Source: Akkermansiaceae bacterium
GTDB lineage: Bacteria > Verrucomicrobiota > Verrucomicrobiia > Verrucomicrobiales > Akkermansiaceae
DNA length: 54,802 nucleotides
NCBI GenBank assembly: GCA_030725745.1
Contig: JANRFH010000056.1
Coordinates: 1 to 54,802, forward strand
Direction: 5' to 3'
Below are positions 9,292-52,450 of the stretch, one piece after another. Position numbers and translations under genes: made by a program. Each line of letters starts with the position of its first letter. The first letter of the stretch is position 1. The notes beneath the pieces were generated by a model, which worked only from the letters and a program-made list of their open reading frames with translations, did not search any database and was not told where the DNA came from.

Positions 9292-10299
9292 ATGGATCAC
9301 GCCACCGAGACCGAAGTCGCCGATGCAGCAAAGCATCTCCGCTCACTCAGCCAAGGTCTCAACACCATCCTTTTTGGACAGGAAGAGATCATTTCCCTCG
9401 TCATCACCGGTGTCCTCGCACGGGGTCACATCCTCCTCGAAGGCCTGCCAGGCTTGGGAAAAACCGAACTGGTAAAAGGACTCTCGAAGCTTCTTCGCCT
9501 TGAAAACAAGCGCGTCCAGTTCACACCAGACCTTCTACCCGGAGATATCACGGGAAATCCTGTTCTCCAAGAAGTCGACGGACGCCGTGAGTTCGTATTC
9601 CAGCCCGGCCCCCTCTTCGCAAACATCGTCCTCGCCGACGAAATCAACCGCGCCTCCCCGAAAACCCAGTCCGCCCTCCTCGAAGCCATGCAGGAGCGCC
9701 GCGTCACCGTTTTGGGCAAAACCCACGAACTTCCCCTCCCCTTCTTCGTCCTCGCTACGCAGAACCCCATCGAACTCGAAGGCACCTACCCCCTCCCCGA
9801 GGCACAGCTCGACCGCTTCCTCTTCAAGCTAGAGATCACGAAAAATGACGTCTCCACCCTACAGCGCATCGTTTCCAGCCGCGAGCTAGGCACCGAGCCA
9901 GAAGTCGATCCCATCATGAGCGCCGAGACACTCGCCGAGCTACTCGCCCTCACCCGCCGCATTTTCCTCCCGGATGTCGTCGCAAACTACATCGCCCGCC
10001 TCGTTGACTCCACCCACCCCGGCCAATCGGAATCTTCCGCCCAAGTCCGCTTCGGAGCCAGTCCCCGCGCCGCCCTCGCCATGGCCTCCGCCGCAAAAGC
10101 ACGCGCCCTCATCAACGGCCGCACCAACGCCTCCTTCGAAGACGTCAAAGCTATCGCCCCCGCCGTCCTCCGCCACCGCATCGTTCTTGACTACAATGCC
10201 CGTGTCGATGGCCACACCACCAACTCCGTCGTCGCAAAACTCCTCTCGGAAATCCCCTTCCAAGACAGTCCCACCCCGAAAAACCTTACCCCCGCGTAG
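9292..10299 (+). CDS. MoxR-family AAA+ ATPase
   Basis: 335 residues from ATG 9292, chosen over a TTG 18 bp upstream. Walker A is GLPGLGKTEL, Walker B is IVLADEINRASP with the usual KTQSALLEAMQE following, and FFVLATQNPIE(LEGTYPLPEAQ) is the sensor region. All are diagnostic of the MoxR family, chaperone-like ATPases that usually act with VWA/DUF58 proteins on envelope complexes. No DUF58 or VWA gene follows; the next genes are a two-TM envelope protein and an ABC transporter. It diverges from the SCO gene set across 111 bp that probably holds both promoters. Confidence 0.93.
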   Translation: MDHATETEVADAAKHLRSLSQGLNTILFGQEEIISLVITGVLARGHILLEGLPGLGKTELVKGLSKLLRLENKRVQFTPDLLPGDITGNPVLQEVDGRREFVFQPGPLFANIVLADEINRASPKTQSALLEAMQERRVTVLGKTHELPLPFFVLATQNPIELEGTYPLPEAQLDRFLFKLEITKNDVSTLQRIVSSRELGTEPEVDPIMSAETLAELLALTRRIFLPDVVANYIARLVDSTHPGQSESSAQVRFGASPRAALAMASAAKARALINGRTNASFEDVKAIAPAVLRHRIVLDYNARVDGHTTNSVVAKLLSEIPFQDSPTPKNLTPA

Positions 10300-10327
10300 C
10301 TGCCCCAAGTCGCAACATCCTCCCACT

Positions 10328-12115
10328 ATGCTCCGCCCATCCTCTTCCATTCGATGTTCAATGTTCAGCGTTGGACTCGTCCGACGTAGCCTCGGCGTAG
10401 TCGGATGTTCAATGTTCCTCCTCCTAGCAGCCTCCGCCCAGGAAGTCCTTTTCCGCCAAGTCTTCGACACAAAGACAGACACCCACGTCGAGGCCACTGC
10501 CCTTTTCTCCAGCCCCAGCATCGGCGGCTACATGCCAGTGCGCATCCTCATCGCAAACCGGCAGCAGATCCCCCACAAGATCTACCTAAATTTTAAGGAC
10601 TCCACCAACTATTCCGAATCCCTCAACACCAGCTCATCCTTCGGCTTCAGCGCCCCTCCGGGGAAAACCGTCGTCACCGACATCCTCGTCCCCCTATCCG
10701 CCCAGAACGGCGTCGCGAATTACCACACCCTTGATATCGCCCTCTCCGGCTCCATGGGAAAAACCCAGAACTCACTCAGCACCGTATTCACCACAGATCA
10801 ACCCTGCGTCCTCCTCAGCGAGTCCCTCTACACCCCCAACGGCTCCGCCCTCGACACGGAAATTAGCACCCGCACCACATCCAGTTCTTATGGACGCTCC
10901 GGCACCGGCTTCTCCGCGAAATTCGATCCCAAACAACTCCCCGACGATTGGCGCGCCTACTCTGGCTACGACACCATCATGCTCACTCAGGCCGATTGGG
11001 CGGACGTCCCTCCCGGCCCGCGCAACGCCATCATCTCATGGGTGCGCCTTGGCGGCCAACTCGTCCTCTACACCACCGCCAAGCCCACCCTCGCCGCTCT
11101 CGGCCTGCCGCAGGATTCCAGTTTCGGAAAAATCTGGATTGAGAAAATCAAAGCCGATCTCCGCCTCAATCCGAAGGTTACCGTCAACCTCGCCACCACA
11201 CGCCGGGGCACCCAGACCCGTATCGAATCAATCATCAACGACTTCGAAAGCGCCTGGCCCATTGAGGATGAATTCGGTGAGAAATCCTTCAACTACGTCC
11301 TCTTCGTCATCATCCTTATCGCCTTCGGCGTCCTCGTCGGCCCCGTGAACCTCTTCGTCTTCGCAAAGTCCGGCCGCCGCCACCGCCTTTTCATCACCAC
11401 TCCCATCATCTCCATCGCCACCTCACTCATTCTCGTCGGCCTCATCATCCTGCAGGACGGCTTCGGGGGAAATGGCACACGCATCGTCCTCATGGAGGTG
11501 CGCCCAGATGAAAATCAAAACGCCGCCTTCATCCACCAAGAGCAGTTTTCCCGCAGCGGCGTCATGACCTCGCCATCCTTCACCGTCGATGCCCCTGCCC
11601 TCATCGCACCGGTGCCCATCGCCACCAGCCGCTGGGCGCGCCTCACCACCAATTACGATTCCTCGGGCACCTACGACCTCCAGCCCACAGATGGGAAACT
11701 CTTCGCCTCCGGAGATTGGTTCCAGTCCCGCTCCGAGCAAGGCCAGCTCATCACCGCCGTCATTCCCACCCGCGGCCGCATCGAGGCTGGCAGCGCCCCG
11801 GATACCCTCATCTCCACCTTCGAGTTCCCCATCGAGACCCTCCTCTACAAAGACGCCTCCGGCGAGTGGTTCCGCGCCGAGAACGTCACCAAAGGCCAAC
11901 GCATCAAGCTCACCGCCACCGATCCCACCATCATCCAGCCCATCCTCAACGGCCTAAACGCACGCTTCTCCACCCGCAACCGCTCCTACCTCAAGAAAGT
12001 CTCCGACCGCGACGACCACTTCATCGCCATCACCGACCAAGCACCCGCCATCGAAACCCACCCCGGCATCGACTGGAAGACATCCACCATCATCACCGGC
12101 CCCATCGCCCGCTGA
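10328..12115 (+). CDS. Envelope protein with signal peptide and two TM segments; GATase-like fold
   Basis: Up to 595 residues. ATGs at 10328, 10361 and 10412 are possible; 10361 gives the neatest signal peptide (basic VRR, then CSMFLLLAASAQ). Next comes about 290 residues of periplasmic domain, including SGYDTIMLTQADW and IISWVRLGGQLVLYTT. That resembles the glutamine-amidotransferase-like domain found in membrane proteins of MoxR loci. Two membrane segments follow (YVLFVIILIAFGVLVGPVNL; TPIISIATSLILVGLIIL) with a basic cytoplasmic loop (KSGRRHR), then about 210 residues outside. Function unknown. It follows moxR by 28 bp, and its stop touches an AT-rich repeat. The first codons are made from a dispersed repeat. 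Confidence 0.83.
   Translation: MLRPSSSIRCSMFSVGLVRRSLGVVGCSMFLLLAASAQEVLFRQVFDTKTDTHVEATALFSSPSIGGYMPVRILIANRQQIPHKIYLNFKDSTNYSESLNTSSSFGFSAPPGKTVVTDILVPLSAQNGVANYHTLDIALSGSMGKTQNSLSTVFTTDQPCVLLSESLYTPNGSALDTEISTRTTSSSYGRSGTGFSAKFDPKQLPDDWRAYSGYDTIMLTQADWADVPPGPRNAIISWVRLGGQLVLYTTAKPTLAALGLPQDSSFGKIWIEKIKADLRLNPKVTVNLATTRRGTQTRIESIINDFESAWPIEDEFGEKSFNYVLFVIILIAFGVLVGPVNLFVFAKSGRRHRLFITTPIISIATSLILVGLIILQDGFGGNGTRIVLMEVRPDENQNAAFIHQEQFSRSGVMTSPSFTVDAPALIAPVPIATSRWARLTTNYDSSGTYDLQPTDGKLFASGDWFQSRSEQGQLITAVIPTRGRIEAGSAPDTLISTFEFPIETLLYKDASGEWFRAENVTKGQRIKLTATDPTIIQPILNGLNARFSTRNRSYLKKVSDRDDHFIAITDQAPAIETHPGIDWKTSTIITGPIAR
10353..10417 (+). repeat. Dispersed-type repeat (GATGTTCAATGTTC pair plus palindrome) in signal-peptide region
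   Basis: The 14-mer GATGTTCAATGTTC occurs at 10353-10366 and again at 10404-10417. Between them lies an imperfect palindrome with arms TCCGAC (10380-10385) and GTCGGA (10400-10405). Both 14-mers are in the same reading frame and give CSMF twice in the predicted protein. I have seen similar strings as intergenic repeats in Verrucomicrobiota genomes, from memory; here the unit lies at the 5' end of a coding region. Confidence 0.6.
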
Positions 12116-12147
12116 AATTTTAAGTTTTAAACTTTAAACCTCAAGGA
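12114..12147 (-). repeat. 34-bp AT-rich repeat, copy A (inverted)
   Basis: GAAATTTTAAGTTTTAAACT and onward to CTCAAGGA. Its reverse complement matches copy B (12541-12574) at 31 of 34 positions and copy C (13588-13621) at 32 of 34. It overlaps the TGA stop (12113-12115) of the upstream gene, and its AAGGA end supplies a plausible ribosome site for the gene at 12156. Confidence 0.85.
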
Positions 12148-12155
12148 AGAGCCCG

Positions 12156-12554
12156 ATGGACAGCCAATCCCCGAATACAAAACCCTACGATCTTGAGGAG
12201 CGCACTTATGCCTTTGCACTCCGGATCCGCCTTTTCCTGCACAACGTCAAATGGGAGCCGGTATCGTGGCCCGACGTAAAACAACTCCTCCGCTCCTCCG
12301 GTTCCGTCGCGGCAAACCACCTCGAATCGATCGAAGCCATCAGCCCCACCGACAGCCTCTACCGCCTCCGGATCGTCAAAAAGGAAGCTCGCGAATCAAG
12401 CCTCTGGCTACGCCTCCTCAACGACTGCAACCCCCTCAACACGGAAAACCATACGAACCTTCAAGCCCTCATTTCGGAATCCAACGAGCTCGTAAAAATC
12501 TTCGCGCCATCATCCGAAAAAAGTCCGCAAACCAGCCTCTTCCCTGAGGTTTAA
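12156..12554 (+). CDS. Four-helix-bundle protein (S23 / 23S rRNA intervening-sequence protein family)
   Basis: 132 residues. YDLEERTYAFALRIRLFL, QLLRSSGSVAANHLES and RLRIVKKEARESSLWLRLL follow the pattern of the S23-type four-helix-bundle family (TIGR02436), named for proteins encoded in 23S rRNA intervening sequences and related in fold to the Avd accessory protein of retroelements. Here it is not in an rRNA gene. It lies between the envelope protein gene and the ABC ATPase gene, framed by inverted 34-bp repeats. Start ATG 12156 has AAGGAAGAG just upstream. The TAA stop lies inside repeat copy B. Biochemical role unknown. It may be a passenger in this operon. Confidence 0.85.
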   Translation: MDSQSPNTKPYDLEERTYAFALRIRLFLHNVKWEPVSWPDVKQLLRSSGSVAANHLESIEAISPTDSLYRLRIVKKEARESSLWLRLLNDCNPLNTENHTNLQALISESNELVKIFAPSSEKSPQTSLFPEV

Positions 12555-12574
12555 AGTTTAAAATTTAAAGTTTC
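12541..12574 (+). repeat. 34-bp AT-rich repeat, copy B
   Basis: TCCCTGAGGTTTAAAGTTTA and onward to AAAGTTTC; 33 of 34 positions match copy C. It contains the TAA stop of the four-helix-bundle gene (12552-12554) and ends directly at the ATG (12575) of the ABC ATPase gene, so it replaces the normal ribosome-binding region. Confidence 0.88.
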
Positions 12575-13594
12575 ATGCCCGAAGCCGCAATAACCGTCCA
12601 CAACCTCTACCGCTTCTTCGGCCCCCTCCAGGCGGTCAACGGAGTCAGTTTCGAAATCCCCCACGGCTCCGTCTGCGGATTCGTCGGCGCAAACGGCGCT
12701 GGAAAAACAACGACCATGCGCATCCTCGCATCGCTCGACTACCCGACCATGGGGCATGCCGAGATCTGCGGTATCAATGTTATCCACCACCCCGCCGAAG
12801 TTAGGAAGCTCATCGGCTGGATGCCCGACCACTTCGGGAACTACGACAACATGACGGTGCTGGAGTATCTCGACTTCTACGCCCGTGCCCTCGGCTACAA
12901 AGGTGCCGAGCGCCGCGCACGCATCGATGAGGTCATGGACTTCACCGACCTCATCCCCCTTGCCGACCGCTTTTCTAACAAGCTCTCCAAAGGCATGACC
13001 CAGCGCCTTTGCCTTGGCCGATCCCTCCTCCACGATCCCCAAGTGCTCATCATGGACGAGCCAGCCGCCGGCCTCGACCCAAAGGCACGCGTCGAACTCA
13101 AGCACCTCATCCGCGTCCTCGCCAAAGAAGGCAAAACCATTTTCATCTCCTCCCACATTCTCTCCGAGCTAGGGGAAATGTGCGACTCCCTCCTCTTCAT
13201 CAACAACGGCCGCATCGTCCACCACGGCGATTCCGAGAGCCTTAAAAGATCCACCGACACCCTTGGCGGCGTCCTCTACGACGTCCAGCTCGATGGAGAT
13301 CCGCAGGCACTCTCCGATTGGGCCGTCCTCCAGCCAAACATCGAGTTCCTCGAGTCACGCAAAACCGGTGGCCGCATCCGCATCGACACCGAAGACCCAA
13401 ACAAAGCCGCCGACGTCCTCTCCCGCATGGTTCGCGACAACCTCCGCGTCGTCGACTTCCACCGCGAACAACGCAACCTCGAAGACGCCTTCATCGACAT
13501 CCTCGCCAACCTAGAAAAGGACGCCACCTTCATCCCCTCCCCACCACCCCTCCCCCCCGAGCCCTCCGTCCCCCACGACGACCCTCTTCCTTGA
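12575..13594 (+). CDS. ABC transporter ATP-binding protein
   Basis: 339 residues. Walker A GANGAGKTTT, signature LSKGMTQRLCLGRSL (LSxGxxQR form), Walker B VLIMDEPAAGLDP and switch His in ISSHILSEL, with Q-loop near GWMPDHFGNYDNM. The extra 100 residues after the ATPase core resemble the C-terminal extension of ABC-2 type exporters; the end is proline-rich. It pairs with the permease that follows. Start ATG 12575 abuts repeat copy B, with no Shine-Dalgarno visible. Its TGA stop lies within repeat copy C. Transport substrate unknown; the MoxR neighbour suggests an envelope function. Confidence 0.93.
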   Translation: MPEAAITVHNLYRFFGPLQAVNGVSFEIPHGSVCGFVGANGAGKTTTMRILASLDYPTMGHAEICGINVIHHPAEVRKLIGWMPDHFGNYDNMTVLEYLDFYARALGYKGAERRARIDEVMDFTDLIPLADRFSNKLSKGMTQRLCLGRSLLHDPQVLIMDEPAAGLDPKARVELKHLIRVLAKEGKTIFISSHILSELGEMCDSLLFINNGRIVHHGDSESLKRSTDTLGGVLYDVQLDGDPQALSDWAVLQPNIEFLESRKTGGRIRIDTEDPNKAADVLSRMVRDNLRVVDFHREQRNLEDAFIDILANLEKDATFIPSPPPLPPEPSVPHDDPLP

Positions 13595-13621
13595 GGTTTA
13601 AAGTTTAAAATTTAAAGTTTC
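13588..13621 (+). repeat. 34-bp AT-rich repeat, copy C
   Basis: TCCTTGAGGTTTAAAGTTTA and onward to AAAGTTTC, differing from copy B at one position. It contains the TGA stop (13592-13594) of the ABC ATPase and ends directly at the ATG (13622) of the permease, the same stop-repeat-start layout as copy B. Confidence 0.88.
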
Positions 13622-15031
13622 ATGCACCTCAGCGATTTCCCTGACCGCCTTTCCCCCATGCTCGTCAAAGAGCTGCGCCAAGGCCTCCGCACGCGCTCCT
13701 TCGTCGGCGTCTTCCTCGCCCTGCAGATCATCCTCGGCATCATCCTCCTTGCAGCCAGCGCGGCTGCCGACTCGGATGATGCGGGCAGCTCCATCTCGAG
13801 CGTCATCTTCACATTCTTCTCCATCGCCGTCCTTATCATCCAGCCGATGCGCGGCATTTCCGCCCTCTCCTCTGAGGTGAAGGGCAACACCATCGATATG
13901 ATGGTTCTCACCCGCCTTTCCGCATGGCGCATCGTCACCGGGAAATGGACAGCCATCGTCAGTCAGTCCGCGCTGCTCCTCATCACCATCGTCCCATACC
14001 TCATCCTCCGTTACTTCTTCGGCGGAATGAACCTCTTCGGCGAGATCATGCTCCTTGCCATGATCTTCATCACCTCCGCCACCCTCACCGCCATCACCGT
14101 TGGCCTCTCCGCCTCCGGCTCGGTCATCCTCCGCATGGTGTTGCCCATGATTGCCCTGCCCATCGCCGCCTACTCCATGCTCATGATGATGGCCTTCGGC
14201 GGAGGCTCTGCCTTTCTTATCGAACTCGTCTCCCTCGCCGATAAGGACTCGCGCATCTTCGTCCCCATCTACCTTGCCACCTGCGCCTACGGTGGCTTTT
14301 TTATGCTCTCTATCGGCACCTCACTCATCGCCCCCTACGCCGAGAACCACTCCACCAAGCGCCGCCTCGTCGCCCTATGGGTCACCATCGTCGCAGCTGG
14401 CCTCGGCTGCATGTCCTTCACCGATCCAGACGTCCTGCCCTTCTTTTTCGTCCTCATCCTCCTACCTATCTTCGCTAGCTCACTCACCGAGTTCGCCCCC
14501 CTCGTAACACCCTCCTACCGCAGGTTCGCGAAGTTTGGCACCCTTGGGAAAACCACAGGCATATTCCTCCTCCCCGGCTGGCCTTCCGGCCTCTTTTTCT
14601 GCCTCCTCCTCTCACTCATCGCCGCCGTTCCTTTCTTATTCAGCGACTACCCCTACGGAATAGGTGACACCCAGATTTATGGCGTCATCTGCCTCGCCAG
14701 CCTCCTTTTCCCCGCCGTCATCATCAACCTCTTTCGCATGAACGGCCCCCAGCGCGTCTCGAACTACGTCCTCTTCCTCCTCAGTTCCGGCATCATCACT
14801 CTGGTACTCGCCGGCATTGCAGAATCCTTGTCCAATCACGAATTCCTTTGGATCTTCCTCTGGATTCCTCCCGTCCTCATGGTTCTTGAGGAAATGGGGA
14901 GTAGCGGTGATGCCGTGGGCATCTGCGCCATCGTCCTCAACCTCATCTTCATCGGCATCCTCCTCATGCTTGCCATCCACACCTACCGGAAGTCTATTCT
15001 GGAAATTCGCGCATCCCTTGCGCAGGAGTAA
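13622..15031 (+). CDS. ABC-2 type transporter permease
   Basis: 469 residues with about ten to twelve hydrophobic segments. The first is preceded by SPMLVKELRQGLRTRSF, the typical amphipathic start of ABC-2 permeases (KELRQ and a basic patch). Others include GVFLALQIILGIILLAA, SVIFTFFSIAVLIIQ, MLLAMIFITSATLTAITVGL and the long C-terminal set ending in IGILLMLAIHTYR. It should form the membrane channel for the ATPase encoded just before. Longer than simple ABC-2 permeases (often 250-400 residues). The ATG directly follows repeat copy C. Confidence 0.9.
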   Translation: MHLSDFPDRLSPMLVKELRQGLRTRSFVGVFLALQIILGIILLAASAAADSDDAGSSISSVIFTFFSIAVLIIQPMRGISALSSEVKGNTIDMMVLTRLSAWRIVTGKWTAIVSQSALLLITIVPYLILRYFFGGMNLFGEIMLLAMIFITSATLTAITVGLSASGSVILRMVLPMIALPIAAYSMLMMMAFGGGSAFLIELVSLADKDSRIFVPIYLATCAYGGFFMLSIGTSLIAPYAENHSTKRRLVALWVTIVAAGLGCMSFTDPDVLPFFFVLILLPIFASSLTEFAPLVTPSYRRFAKFGTLGKTTGIFLLPGWPSGLFFCLLLSLIAAVPFLFSDYPYGIGDTQIYGVICLASLLFPAVIINLFRMNGPQRVSNYVLFLLSSGIITLVLAGIAESLSNHEFLWIFLWIPPVLMVLEEMGSSGDAVGICAIVLNLIFIGILLMLAIHTYRKSILEIRASLAQE

Positions 15032-18020: not shown

Positions 18021-18130
18021 AATATGGAGCGCGGCTTTGTAAGCCGCTGTCTGGCGCCCCTCAGCAATGAAATCTCCGCCCGTAAGCGCCACCCAAATAT
18101 GGAGCGCGGGTCGGCGTGCCCCTTGGCGAT
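18021..18130. repeat. Two copies of an AATATGGAGCGCGG palindromic repeat
   Basis: AATATGGAGCGCGGC at 18021 runs into the hairpin GCGGCTTTGTAAGCCGC. A second copy, AATATGGAGCGCGGG, begins at 18096 and continues with a different tail. A related, degraded copy is at 52423-52450 near another gene end. These look like REP-type dispersed palindromes. The 225-bp spacer 18015-18239 holds nothing else that I can recognise; open frames through it are repeat-derived. Confidence 0.7.
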
Positions 18131-19199: not shown

Positions 19200-19400
19200 G
19201 GGCGCTTTGTTTCGGGAAGCGCGTTCCCCGGGAAGCGCCTTTCACCTCGCGTTCTGGAGAACGCGGCTCCACCCGTGACATCAGCATGCCGTAAAGCCGA
19301 AAGGACCCGCGATTCCGAAATCGCGTCAACCCCAGCCACGGAGCACAGAGCAATTCGCCGGAAAGGTCGCGATTTCGGAATCGCGGCTCCGTTCCCCCTT
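19200..19400. repeat. Cluster of GC-rich palindromes upstream of nuoL
   Basis: The 456-bp spacer 19021-19476 contains several short palindromes. One has arms CGCGTTCT and AGAACGCG (19248-19265). Two are exact reverse complements of each other, 19308-19325 and 19368-19385, each with arms CGCGATT and AATCGCG. An AAGCGC-based palindrome lies at 19200-19222. GGCTCC follows two of them. They look like REP-type elements; the 19308-19385 stretch has 18-bp perfect terminal inverted repeats. No gene or clear promoter could be picked out. Confidence 0.7.
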
Positions 19401-38068: not shown

Positions 38069-38497
38069 TTACATTCCTTCGACTTCGAGACCCATCTGGC
38101 GGGCGGTGCCTGCGAGAATGCGTGCTGCGGCTTCGGGATCTTTCGTGTTAAGGTCTGGCATCTTGATGTTCACGACTTCCATGAGTTGTGCCTTGGTGAT
38201 CTTGCCGACTTTCTTTTTGTTCGGCTCACCGGATCCAGATGCGAGACCAGCTGCTTTCTTCAGGAGATTTCCTGCTGGTGGGCGCTTGGTGACGAAAGTG
38301 AAGGACTTGTCTTTGTAGACGGAGATCACGCAAGGAAGCACGTCACCGGACTGAGCCTGGGTGGCGGCATTGAATTCCTTACAGAACGCCATAATGTTGA
38401 CACCTGCCTGTCCGAGGGCTGGGCCGACCGGCGGAGATGGATTTGCGGCTCCAGCTTTGATCTGGAGTTTGATGATTTTGGTGACTTCCTTGGCCAT
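38069..38497 (-). CDS. rplK: Ribosomal protein uL11
   Basis: 142 residues. [20 protein letters not shown] with [15 protein letters not shown] is the diagnostic N-terminus; the C-terminal RNA-binding domain ends [15 protein letters not shown]. It is part of the GTPase-associated centre. 54 bp separate it from nusG, with a short tandem repeat of a CTGAAA-type unit in the gap. Confidence 0.97.
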
Positions 38498-38551
38498 GGT
38501 ACTATTTGGTAAATGCTGAAAACTGAAATGCTGAAAAACTGAAATGAATGC

Positions 38552-49509: not shown

Positions 49510-49797
49510 ATGAATTTCACCGAAATCGACCGCGAGGACTTCCGCAACCTCCTCGCGGAAATCCATCGCACCCACATGCCTTTCGGCATGTTCGGAAAGG
49601 AAAAATACCCACCCCACGGCGTCCCCATCATCGACCTCCCTGAGGAATACCTCATCTGGTTCAAACAACGCAGCTTCCCCAAAGGCCGCCTCGGCGAACT
49701 CATGGCCCACGTCTGCGAAATCAAAGAATGCGGCATGGACTCGCTCTTCAACCCCATGCGCCAAGCCAACGGCGGCCGCACGAAGCTGAAACTTTAA
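49510..49797 (+). CDS. DUF3820 family protein
   Basis: 95 residues. MPFGMFGKEKYPPHGVPIID followed by LPEEYLIWF and a Gly/Leu-rich helix (GRLGELMAHVCEIKECGMD) matches DUF3820, a small cytoplasmic family of unknown function. Divergent from the VOC gene and convergent with argJ. The last codons and TAA stop (49795-49797) lie inside an AT-rich repeat. Confidence 0.83.
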   Translation: MNFTEIDREDFRNLLAEIHRTHMPFGMFGKEKYPPHGVPIIDLPEEYLIWFKQRSFPKGRLGELMAHVCEIKECGMDSLFNPMRQANGGRTKLKL

Positions 49798-49821
49798 ACT
49801 CTAAATTTTAAACCTCAATTC
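49788..49821 (-). repeat. 34-bp AT-rich repeat, copy D
   Basis: GAAACTTTAAACTCTAAATT and onward to CCTCAA; about 28 of 34 positions match the reverse complement of copy B. It carries the stop codon of the DUF3820 gene and faces copy E 28 bp away, so the two can form a long hairpin between the convergent genes. Confidence 0.75.
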
Positions 49822-49849
49822 AGAGAAAACTGATCGCCAAACCCCATCT

Positions 49850-49883
49850 TCCTTCGAGTTTATAGTTTAAAATTTAAAGTTTC
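49850..49883 (+). repeat. 34-bp AT-rich repeat, copy E
   Basis: TCCTTCGAGTTTATAGTTTA and onward to AAAGTTTC; 30 of 34 positions match copy C. It overlaps the argJ stop (49882-49884, minus strand). With copy D it makes an inverted pair with a short centre, like a MITE or a bidirectional terminator. Confidence 0.78.
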
Positions 49884-51135
49884 AAACCAGCCCGTCTTTT
49901 CGCGCCTGCTTCCAATACGCATACTCAGAGCGATTGAAATCTACATATTCAGGCGAAAGGTCACTCGAATACATCCGGTATTTTGCCTCACCTTGATTTA
50001 GATTGATCTGGATCACGAACTCCCTGCCGGAAACGGCTTCCCGCAGCTCATCCATAGGTGTATCCGCCTGCAAGCCGCCGATACAGGCAAGCTTCCCTCC
50101 TATTGAAATATCGATCAACTCCTCGCGAATGCGCGCTCTAGAATATCCCACTGCATGAATGATGCGCCCCCAGTTCGGATCACCACCGTTCCATGACGCT
50201 TTCACAAGAGCACTCTTACAAACCGCCTCCGCCACCTTCTTTGCATCCAGATGCGTGCGTGCGCCCGCTACCTCGACCGTCACAAATTTAGTAACACGCT
50301 CCCCATCCCTCACGATCGCCTTCGCCAGCTCCAACATTACCCACTTCATCGCAGTCCGGAACTGCCTACATGCGGGGCTATTCCTCCTAGCTGAGGGCAT
50401 CCCGGACTCACCGTTTGCTAGTACGATCACCGTATCGTTCGTGCTCATATCCCCATCGATGGTGATGCGGTTGAAACTTTCTTCCACTGCCTCACGCACC
50501 GCCTCATCAAGGCAGGCCTGCGCGACATTTGCATCCGTCGTGATGAAACACAGCATCGTCGCCATGCTCGGACAAATCATCCCAGCACCTTTCACACACC
50601 CGCCTATCCTCACGCGGTGATCACCCAAATCGAAGGAAATCGCGACCTCCTTCTCGTGCGTGTCACTGGTAATTATCGCCCGGGCAAAATCGTTGCCCTT
50701 CTTTTTCCCAAGCCCAGAAACTAGCGTCGGTATATTAGGTGAAAGCCGTGTCATTGGCATCGGCAGGCCGATCACTCCCGTCGAGCACACACCCACCTCC
50801 GTGGATTTTAGCCCAAGACCCTTTGCTACATCCCCACACATTGACTTCGCGTCATGGATACCTGGAAGACCGGTGCACGCATTCGCATTGCCGGAATTCG
50901 CCACCACCGCACGGATCGACCCTTTACGCAAATTTGCTTGAGACACCTTAACTGGAGCGGCCTTCACCTTGTTCGTCGTGAACATCCCTGCGGACTTGCA
51001 AGGCACTTCAGAATAGATCAGCCCCAGATCCAATCTATCACTTTCAGGATTCTTGATTCCACAACTCACCGCACTCGTCGCGAAGCCTTTCGCGGCGCCA
51101 ATCCCTCCTTTGATTCGTGTGATAGGAAAATCCAT
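49882..51135 (-). CDS. argJ: Bifunctional ornithine acetyltransferase / N-acetylglutamate synthase
   Basis: 417 residues. The autocleavage site is the Thr of PSMATMLCFITTDA (ATML motif), with KGAGMICPSM before it; VANSGNANACTG and NDTVIVLANGESG are further ArgJ motifs. It recycles acetyl groups between acetylornithine and glutamate in arginine synthesis. It matches the family length of about 400. No other arg genes are adjacent. The stop lies at the edge of repeat copy E. Confidence 0.95.
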   Translation of the reverse strand: MDFPITRIKGGIGAAKGFATSAVSCGIKNPESDRLDLGLIYSEVPCKSAGMFTTNKVKAAPVKVSQANLRKGSIRAVVANSGNANACTGLPGIHDAKSMCGDVAKGLGLKSTEVGVCSTGVIGLPMPMTRLSPNIPTLVSGLGKKKGNDFARAIITSDTHEKEVAISFDLGDHRVRIGGCVKGAGMICPSMATMLCFITTDANVAQACLDEAVREAVEESFNRITIDGDMSTNDTVIVLANGESGMPSARRNSPACRQFRTAMKWVMLELAKAIVRDGERVTKFVTVEVAGARTHLDAKKVAEAVCKSALVKASWNGGDPNWGRIIHAVGYSRARIREELIDISIGGKLACIGGLQADTPMDELREAVSGREFVIQINLNQGEAKYRMYSSDLSPEYVDFNRSEYAYWKQARKDGLV

Positions 51136-52422: not shown

Positions 52423-52450
52423 AATATGGAGCGAAGCGTTCAAAGCCGCC
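52423..52450. repeat. Degraded copy of the AATATGGAGCG palindromic repeat
   Basis: AATATGGAGCGAAGCG followed by a short palindrome with AAAGCCGCC, related to the two copies at 18021-18130. It lies just after the stop of the PDZ gene, in the 55-bp gap to the methyltransferase gene. Confidence 0.55.

Follow-up and report, generated by a model that had tools for sequence, protein, structure and literature searches.

Inverted, mostly heptad repeats often frame S23/IVP four-helix-bundle genes in several bacterial phyla

Introduction

Why would a single small gene stand between two inverted copies of a repeat in the middle of an operon? The question is raised by a locus in the window (the whole 54,802-nt stretch of DNA analysed here), where the original prediction saw an S23-like four-helix-bundle gene, framed by inverted repeats within a MoxR/ABC operon, as a possible small mobile unit mobilised in trans. 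The S23-like four-helix family has fold kinship with Avd of diversity-generating retroelements, in which a reverse transcriptase and a template repeat lie next to it. The S23/IVP family itself is known from rRNA intervening sequences, and one of its members forms pentamers (PMC4990558).

Results

The framed unit in the window

Inverted-repeat comparison located two 39-nt arms, 92% complementary and 385 nt apart: upstream arm A on the minus strand (12113..12151) and downstream arm B on the plus strand (12537..12575). They enclose a plus-strand gene (12156..12554) encoding a 132-aa four-helix-bundle protein of Pfam family PF05635 (23S rRNA-intervening sequence protein; E 9.8e-10, 39.1 bits, cut-off 33.8), with 2rld as the sole PDB sequence match (up to E 0.1). 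Arm A opens with three bases (TGA) that form the stop codon of the upstream operon gene (10411..12115, plus strand, start from the gene finder), and its inner box, CTCAAGGAAGAG, lies just 5′ of the S23/IVP start codon, while arm B encodes the final residues and the stop of the S23/IVP gene and gives, as its last base, the A of the start codon of the ABC transporter ATPase gene 3′ of the unit (12575..13594, plus strand, PF00005). A solo copy of the downstream-arm type, C (13584..13622, plus strand; 95% complementary to A), stands between the ABC ATPase and permease genes, and a MoxR-type ATPase gene (AAA_3) lies upstream in the same operon. Neither the permease nor the product of the upstream operon gene, called an envelope protein in the original prediction, has a Pfam match at 0.001. 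The S23/IVP gene stands between two protein genes and not in a 23S or 16S rRNA gene. The framed gene, its MoxR/ABC setting, the third copy and a separate inverted pair at 49.8 kb had all been described in the original prediction, and all are present. Just before the upstream operon gene, the spacer at 10299-10411 holds another heptad type (GTTCAAT / GTTGGAC) with an internal hairpin.

The flanks of the window S23/IVP gene have an inverted-repeat score of 28.5 in the frame used for ordinary-gene controls and 31.5 in that used for loci found by protein similarity, in which the neighbouring ABC gene scores 15. None of 631 ordinary genes of genomes G000 and G004 scores at least 17 (7 of the 631 are heptad-periodic), and the inverted repeats around the window S23/IVP gene are not a product of chance. 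In its predicted fold (-129.5 kcal/mol) the transcript of the unit closes over the reading frame with 40 long-range pairs; z is -5.3, and 0 of 100 shuffles fold as low. Three PF05635 matches were found in this genome, two of them above the curated cut-off. Arms A and B are the only copies within it found enclosing the window's S23/IVP gene; the other two PF05635 matches (C39, C3) lie between 7-nt-like stretches, as judged by eye.

Framing across the gene family

Framing was defined by one fixed threshold, a flank inverted-repeat score of at least 17, and the gene controls were ordinary genes of G000 and G004, leaving out the window genes between 11 and 14 kb. Over all sets, 39 of 86 family loci score at least 17 and 47 fall below it, versus 0 of 911 controls, and the framed loci span Verrucomicrobiota, Cyanobacteriota, Chloroflexota and Bacteroidota. 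Thirty loci were fetched by similarity to the window protein and one was dropped for a missing flank; 19 of the remaining 29 score at least 17. Nine of these belong to the 12 loci orthologous to that of the window and ten to the 17 at other places; the independent number is smaller, as those 12 represent a single orthologous place. The family gene is surrounded by a perfect 41-nt inverted repeat in G072 and by a 55-nt inverted repeat with three mismatches in G009, and long inverted repeats also frame family genes at other places in G073, G086, G024 and G101.

The plasmid set consists of 12 loci fetched out of 20 plasmid records with a match. Eight of these (Cyanobacteriota, Chloroflexota, Bacteroidota) score at least 17, a single Spirochaetota plasmid gene scores 16.5, and all 18 neighbour genes tested score 14 or less. 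Mismatched plasmid flank pairs reach 17 in 8 of 132 cases because arm types recur. Periodicity of 7 nt at or above 0.75 was found in 8 of 12 upstream and 9 of 12 downstream plasmid flanks, and at none of the 12 loci for lags of 5, 6, 8 or 9. Strict 7-nt periodicity is present in at least one flank at 10 of the 12 plasmid loci and 11 of the 29 similarity loci, the others being degenerate.

An independent draw across the phylum with the Pfam model yielded 29 loci, one of which lay at a contig edge and was excluded. Scores of at least 17 were obtained at 10 of the other 28 versus 0 of 280 control positions, and strict heptads at 12 of 28 versus 18 of 280. In a last set of 19 loci from G120 and G172, 3 score at least 17; two of the 19 had been scored earlier, one of them among these three, leaving 2 of 17 new loci. 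With 47 of the 86 loci below 17, the arms are either not universal around family genes or have decayed. Many of these lower-scoring loci also look like heptad pairs and were not counted. Arms consist mostly of 7-nt units whose letters vary between units and match within a unit.

An early reading, that the repeats are unrelated to the four-helix gene (115 copies, three PF05635 matches), was overturned by the comparison of relatives' flanks. The original prediction's joining of gene and repeats into one unit is extended by these counts: such repeats belong with the gene family in several phyla, far above controls. No sign of recent multiplication was found in G120: of the 120 pairs formed by 16 family members, fetched out of 18 matches, one aligned at the DNA level, at 73% across 161 nt. 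In G172 the best such pair shares 72% identity across 447 nt.

The repeat family in its own genome

A genome-wide search showed the repeat to be far more widespread than the original prediction had seen, with 115 matches (up to 3 mismatches, some overlapping) to its 25-nt core in this Luteolibacter-like genome, versus 2 for the reversed pattern; in relatives a backwards-read pattern is no true null, heptads read backwards being heptads too. Six named loci share the repeat, which suggests kinship with Luteolibacter/Prosthecobacter (Verrucomicrobiota). From stretches around the listed matches, 114 separate cores (up to 4 mismatches) were taken; their consensus consists of CTCTTCCTTGAG and, after it, GTTTAAAGTTTAAAATTTAAAGTTT. 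The letters of the box are those of the majority, its last 11 being exact in only 18 of 114 copies.

With gene borders judged from open frames, the outer end of 107 of the 114 copies lies at a start codon or over or beside a stop codon, and that of 7 at neither. It is within 17 nt of a start codon in 76 copies (within 8 nt in 65), and over or beside a stop codon in 31. The same holds for 46 of the 114 inner ends and for 400 of 990 random positions in spacers. The start codons belong to many different genes; a regulon was considered and rejected, since the genes downstream, identified by eye from their N-terminal residues, seem to be an assortment of housekeeping genes.

Sixteen doublets were found in this genome, all 16 with outward-pointing arms and with interiors that look unrelated to each other. 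In the gene-less doublet at 49.8 kb, the gene to the left terminates within the left copy (49787..49825, minus strand), and a minus-strand TGA in the right copy (49846..49884, plus strand) closes a minus-strand open frame of more than 400 codons; the inverted match between the two (49787-49813 / 49858-49884) is 27 nt long and 85% complementary. No relative of the S23/IVP gene lies within 700 nt on the inner side (E 0.1) for 112 of 114 copies, and the doublet interiors contain no clear four-helix remnant, giving weak matches (E 0.5 or above) mainly to the arm-encoded end.

A Shine-Dalgarno motif is present at 11% of 285 sampled starts versus 9% in shuffled sequence, showing no enrichment; the starts came from our own gene finder, whose errors would depress the figure. 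This lack of enrichment would explain why the repeat may end at an ATG. Two general rules for spacers were tried and rejected. Against a stop-to-start hairpin as a genome-wide rule, spacers 60-300 nt long between co-directional genes have no excess complementarity: a score of at least 12 is reached by 0 of 88 in G000, where mismatched pairs give 0.2%, and by about 1 of 85 in G004, where they give 0%. Spacers with a hairpin are thus exceptional. That heptads are common to all spacers was ruled out by counts of lag-7 periodicity at or above 0.6, reached in G000 by 7 of 205 regions upstream of starts and 4 of 169 downstream of stops, and in G004 by 0 of 181 and 0 of 155. A stricter array finder returned 1 array in G000 and 0 in G004, counts of little weight as its short-period filter excludes TTTAAA-type arrays.

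Other repeats were noted in passing. The window spacer at 38497-38551, in front of a start codon, is built from TTTCAGC-like units with a period of 7-8, and units similar to these fill other spacers in G004, G001 and G013. Three copies of a AATATGGAGCG... repeat running into short palindromes, REP-like in appearance, lie at 18021-18122 and 52423-52449, a 27-nt inverted repeat (93%) lies at 19299-19394, 5′ of a long open frame, and a relative carries TTTGAGA tandem arrays (G068:C5:1-94 and G068:C30:6502-6595).

The window locus in relatives

The ABC ATPase was matched at E 1e-60 in 42 of the 59 genomes searched, and the best 18 of these 42 loci, all with neighbour genes, were compared (own genome included in both). 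Among these 18, an S23/IVP gene stands at the same place in G000, G022, G008, G015, G012 and G002, is broken in G017, is reduced to remnants in G033 and G004, and is absent from nine. On a tree of the ABC and permease proteins its presence requires 3 changes, and G005, with neither gene nor arms, is sister to G008, with both (support 100/100). The original prediction had proposed looking for orthologous operons in which the envelope gene is directly followed by the ABC ATPase gene; a clean empty junction was found in G005, made up of a stop, 12 nt and a start, where the sister G008 carries the unit. This junction could also stem from recombination. The flanks of the S23/IVP gene in G002 and G012 belong to a different 7-nt type and score 15, and a search allowing 3 mismatches found no TTTAAA repeat there; since these genomes have the gene without that repeat, the gene is older here than the present arm letters. 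At the window locus it looks vertically inherited and kept in the clade, and not a recent passenger.

In ten genomes with full arms (G033 and G004, with a shortened arm A, being excluded from this count), A and B are of one type per genome: TTTAAA in four (G000, G081, G015, G017) and TTCAA in six (G067, G008, G087, G079, G022, G083), with a mixed arm A in G079 and identical arms in G067 and G008. The mean A/B score is 28.9 for a genome's own pair, 25.2 for the 42 cross pairs of the same type and 14.1 for the 48 cross pairs of the other type. The between-arm match owes part to type sharing, and both arms at the window locus change type together between species.

Four further sites were compared by eye, and the first three behave like the window locus. 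At S1 a doublet is present in G000, G022, G004 and G008, with differing letters, but G033 lacks it. All five relatives compared at S2, and all four at S3, have an element before the start, of varying type. By contrast, at S4 the stop-side copy of G000 is partial in G022 and absent in G033, G004, G005 and G008. At the L038 junction a solo element is absent from G004.

Filled and empty sites on plasmids

Plasmid A of Nostoc sp. C052 (pC052_A) carries a unit that ends at its arms, a perfect 39-nt pair, and the gene upstream of it obtains its stop codon from the arm. Four sister sequences, plasmids D and B of strain C052 and plasmids of two other Nostoc strains, lack the unit and hold about 188 bp of other sequence in its place. 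Compared with pC052_D, pC052_A shows 99.8% identity across 1236 bp in its right flank and 91% in its left. The unit replaces about 188 bp and is no clean insertion, which recombination could explain. The outermost left-arm letters of this unit (L235, about 1433-1445) are complementary to right-flank letters of the empty sites, an arrangement expected from snap-back copying; the complementarity covers only about 4 nt and may be chance.

In Nostoc ATCC 53789, a heptad array 3′ of a family gene ends about 10 nt before the xisH ATG, and at xisH in pNPM2 there is neither family gene nor array. In Nostoc TCL26-01 and Anabaena cylindrica, family genes with heptad-like flanks lie between cas1 and cas2, a pair separated by 2 nt in Nostoc UHCC 0870; of the two, the A. 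cylindrica flank pair was scored, at only 12.5. At these sites the units are discrete and stand at gene borders, a pattern that replacement through recombination could also produce. A very long array of dozens of CGACTTG/CGACTTA units was seen 3′ of a Nostoc family member (L254:1170-1510). Relatives of the gene were also seen within cas, DISARM and DUF1156/Swt1 operons on plasmids of Cyanobacteriota and Chloroflexota (L240, L241, L242, L243, L244), the plasmid gene order DUF1156-S23-Swt1 recurring in two phyla.

Discussion

The favoured reading, tentative but quite possible, is that the window holds an rRNA-IVS-like, possibly selfish unit that lives in operon spacers and of which the solo arms and gene-less doublets may be relics. 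As the predicted fold suggests, paired arms in the transcript would loop out the S23/IVP frame and leave the neighbours' stop and start codons at the base of the stem, by analogy with the 23S rRNA intervening sequences cut out by RNase III. The framing with its statistics, the placement at gene borders, the joint change of the arms and the presence or absence of units are observed; we infer that such transcripts may be processed, that the units may be selfish and may actively move, and that solo arms may descend from them. Units would come and go with the arms as borders, the two arms being rewritten together, and the solo arms and gene-less doublets at other gene borders would be relics or spread copies of arms, probably tolerated there because starts show no Shine-Dalgarno enrichment.

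The mobile unit of the original prediction survives in part. For it stand the empty junction in G005 and the Nostoc plasmid unit, bounded by its arms and absent in four sister sequences; against it, the gene is kept at the window locus in the clade and is present in G002 and G012 without TTTAAA. A gene fixed at its locus, together with a repeat occurring widely without it, had been named as speaking against mobility, and about half of this is what was found: 112 of 114 copies have no gene relative nearby and the gene is kept at the locus. Mobilisation in trans found no backing, as no transposition event, target duplication (by eye) or mobilising enzyme was seen; likewise, no excision, copying, circular form or target duplication (by eye) was seen in the compared loci.

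A broader and rather doubtful proposal makes S23/IVP genes the founders of bacterial heptamer repeats: transposase-less units of a four-helix protein and heptad arms would be spreading among the operon spacers of many phyla, the heptads of STRR, TAACTGA and Luteolibacter would be their arms or relics, and the protein would act on the arms, perhaps guiding a snap-back copying that keeps them complementary while their letters drift.

The heptads could instead be cis-acting elements for translation or transcript stability at gene borders, with an ordinary four-helix gene lying between two of them by accident. This would suit the copies adjoining start codons of many different genes, the pre-start elements kept at S2 and S3 in all relatives retrieved (five and four) and the lack of an evident regulon downstream (names recognised by eye), and it has published precedent in the TAACTGA repeats (PMC4679880) and the cyanobacterial STRR hairpins (PMC2670836). 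However, it fails to explain an inverted pair at unrelated loci in several phyla versus 0 of 911 controls, or the 31 of 114 copies that point at stop codons, and is held to be somewhat improbable. That the unit is a transposase-less DNA transposon, moved in trans by an arm-recognising enzyme and with the doublets as its MITEs, would account for the terminal inverted repeats, the shared polarity of the gene-less doublets (16 of 16) and the presence and absence of an arm-bordered unit in Nostoc C052. A sequence-specific transposase would, however, hardly tolerate arm letters that vary between units. MITEs share a conserved interior and a target duplication, and neither was found, the interiors of the 16 doublets looking unrelated and no duplication being visible by eye at the compared sites; nor were a linked transposase or near-identical copies in G120 found, making this account distinctly unlikely.

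Spread of REP/REPIN-type repeats by a RAYT, with accidental framing of the gene, draws on the high copy number, the inverted doublets and the ten Y1 transposase matches in the genome; the repeat also supplies stop codons, as known for GTAG REPs (PMC3733652). It is nevertheless very unlikely: a search out to about 1.5 kb from each of the ten Y1 matches (two of these stretches being cut by contig ends) gave no copy with 4 or fewer mismatches, at 5 mismatches nine of the ten still have no element around them and the tenth has one, and no RAYT gene flanked by cognate repeats was found in this genome. The arms are moreover AT-rich and periodic, not GTAG-tagged palindromes, and the plasmid, similarity and Pfam-model sets versus their controls show that the framing is not accidental.

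Comparison with known systems

To return to the IVS-like reading, the 23S rRNA intervening sequences of Leptospira and Coxiella share with the window unit a single S23/IVP gene and terminal inverted repeats that form a stem. In Coxiella, RNase III cuts the intervening sequence, whose stem measures 28 bp and which contains an S23 frame, and the IVS has been called a selfish element for which mobility was suggested (PMC4990558). Unlike these, the window unit lies between operon genes and not in rRNA, its arms consist of 7-nt units that vary between units, and solo arms and doublets are dispersed. By analogy it may work like an IVS; it is not placed as a member because it stands outside an rRNA gene and its RNA cutting is putative.

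The STRR of filamentous cyanobacteria are 7-bp intergenic repeats that can form hairpins and are thought to help transcript stability or the coupling of translation (PMC2670836). They resemble the window arms as tandem 7-nt units in spacers; the available portion of PMC2670836 states no link to S23/IVP genes, and such a link is found here on cyanobacterial plasmids. The TAACTGA heptamers of Beggiatoaceae are intergenic, mostly end a few nucleotides from start codons, adjoin genes of no shared function and have few adjacent ribosome-binding sites (PMC4679880). As far as described there, they are one fixed unit in direct repeats with one indirect set, whereas the window-type repeat combines an inner box with many unit types and has inverted partners at stop codons. 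REP, REPIN and MITE repeats are, like the window repeat, dispersed and intergenic, and occur as inverted doublets, in so far as the source covers them (PMC3733652); for the window repeat no transposase link and no conserved interior were found, and its arms are AT-rich and periodic.

Heptamers at starts, heptamer hairpins between genes and S23 frames inside rRNA inverted repeats are thus already in print. A limited literature search recognised no tie of S23/IVP genes outside rRNA to heptamer repeats, and what seems new here is the joining of the two, together with stop-side arms and concerted arm change. The link of S23/IVP genes to heptamers in several phyla makes questions about the function of both testable.
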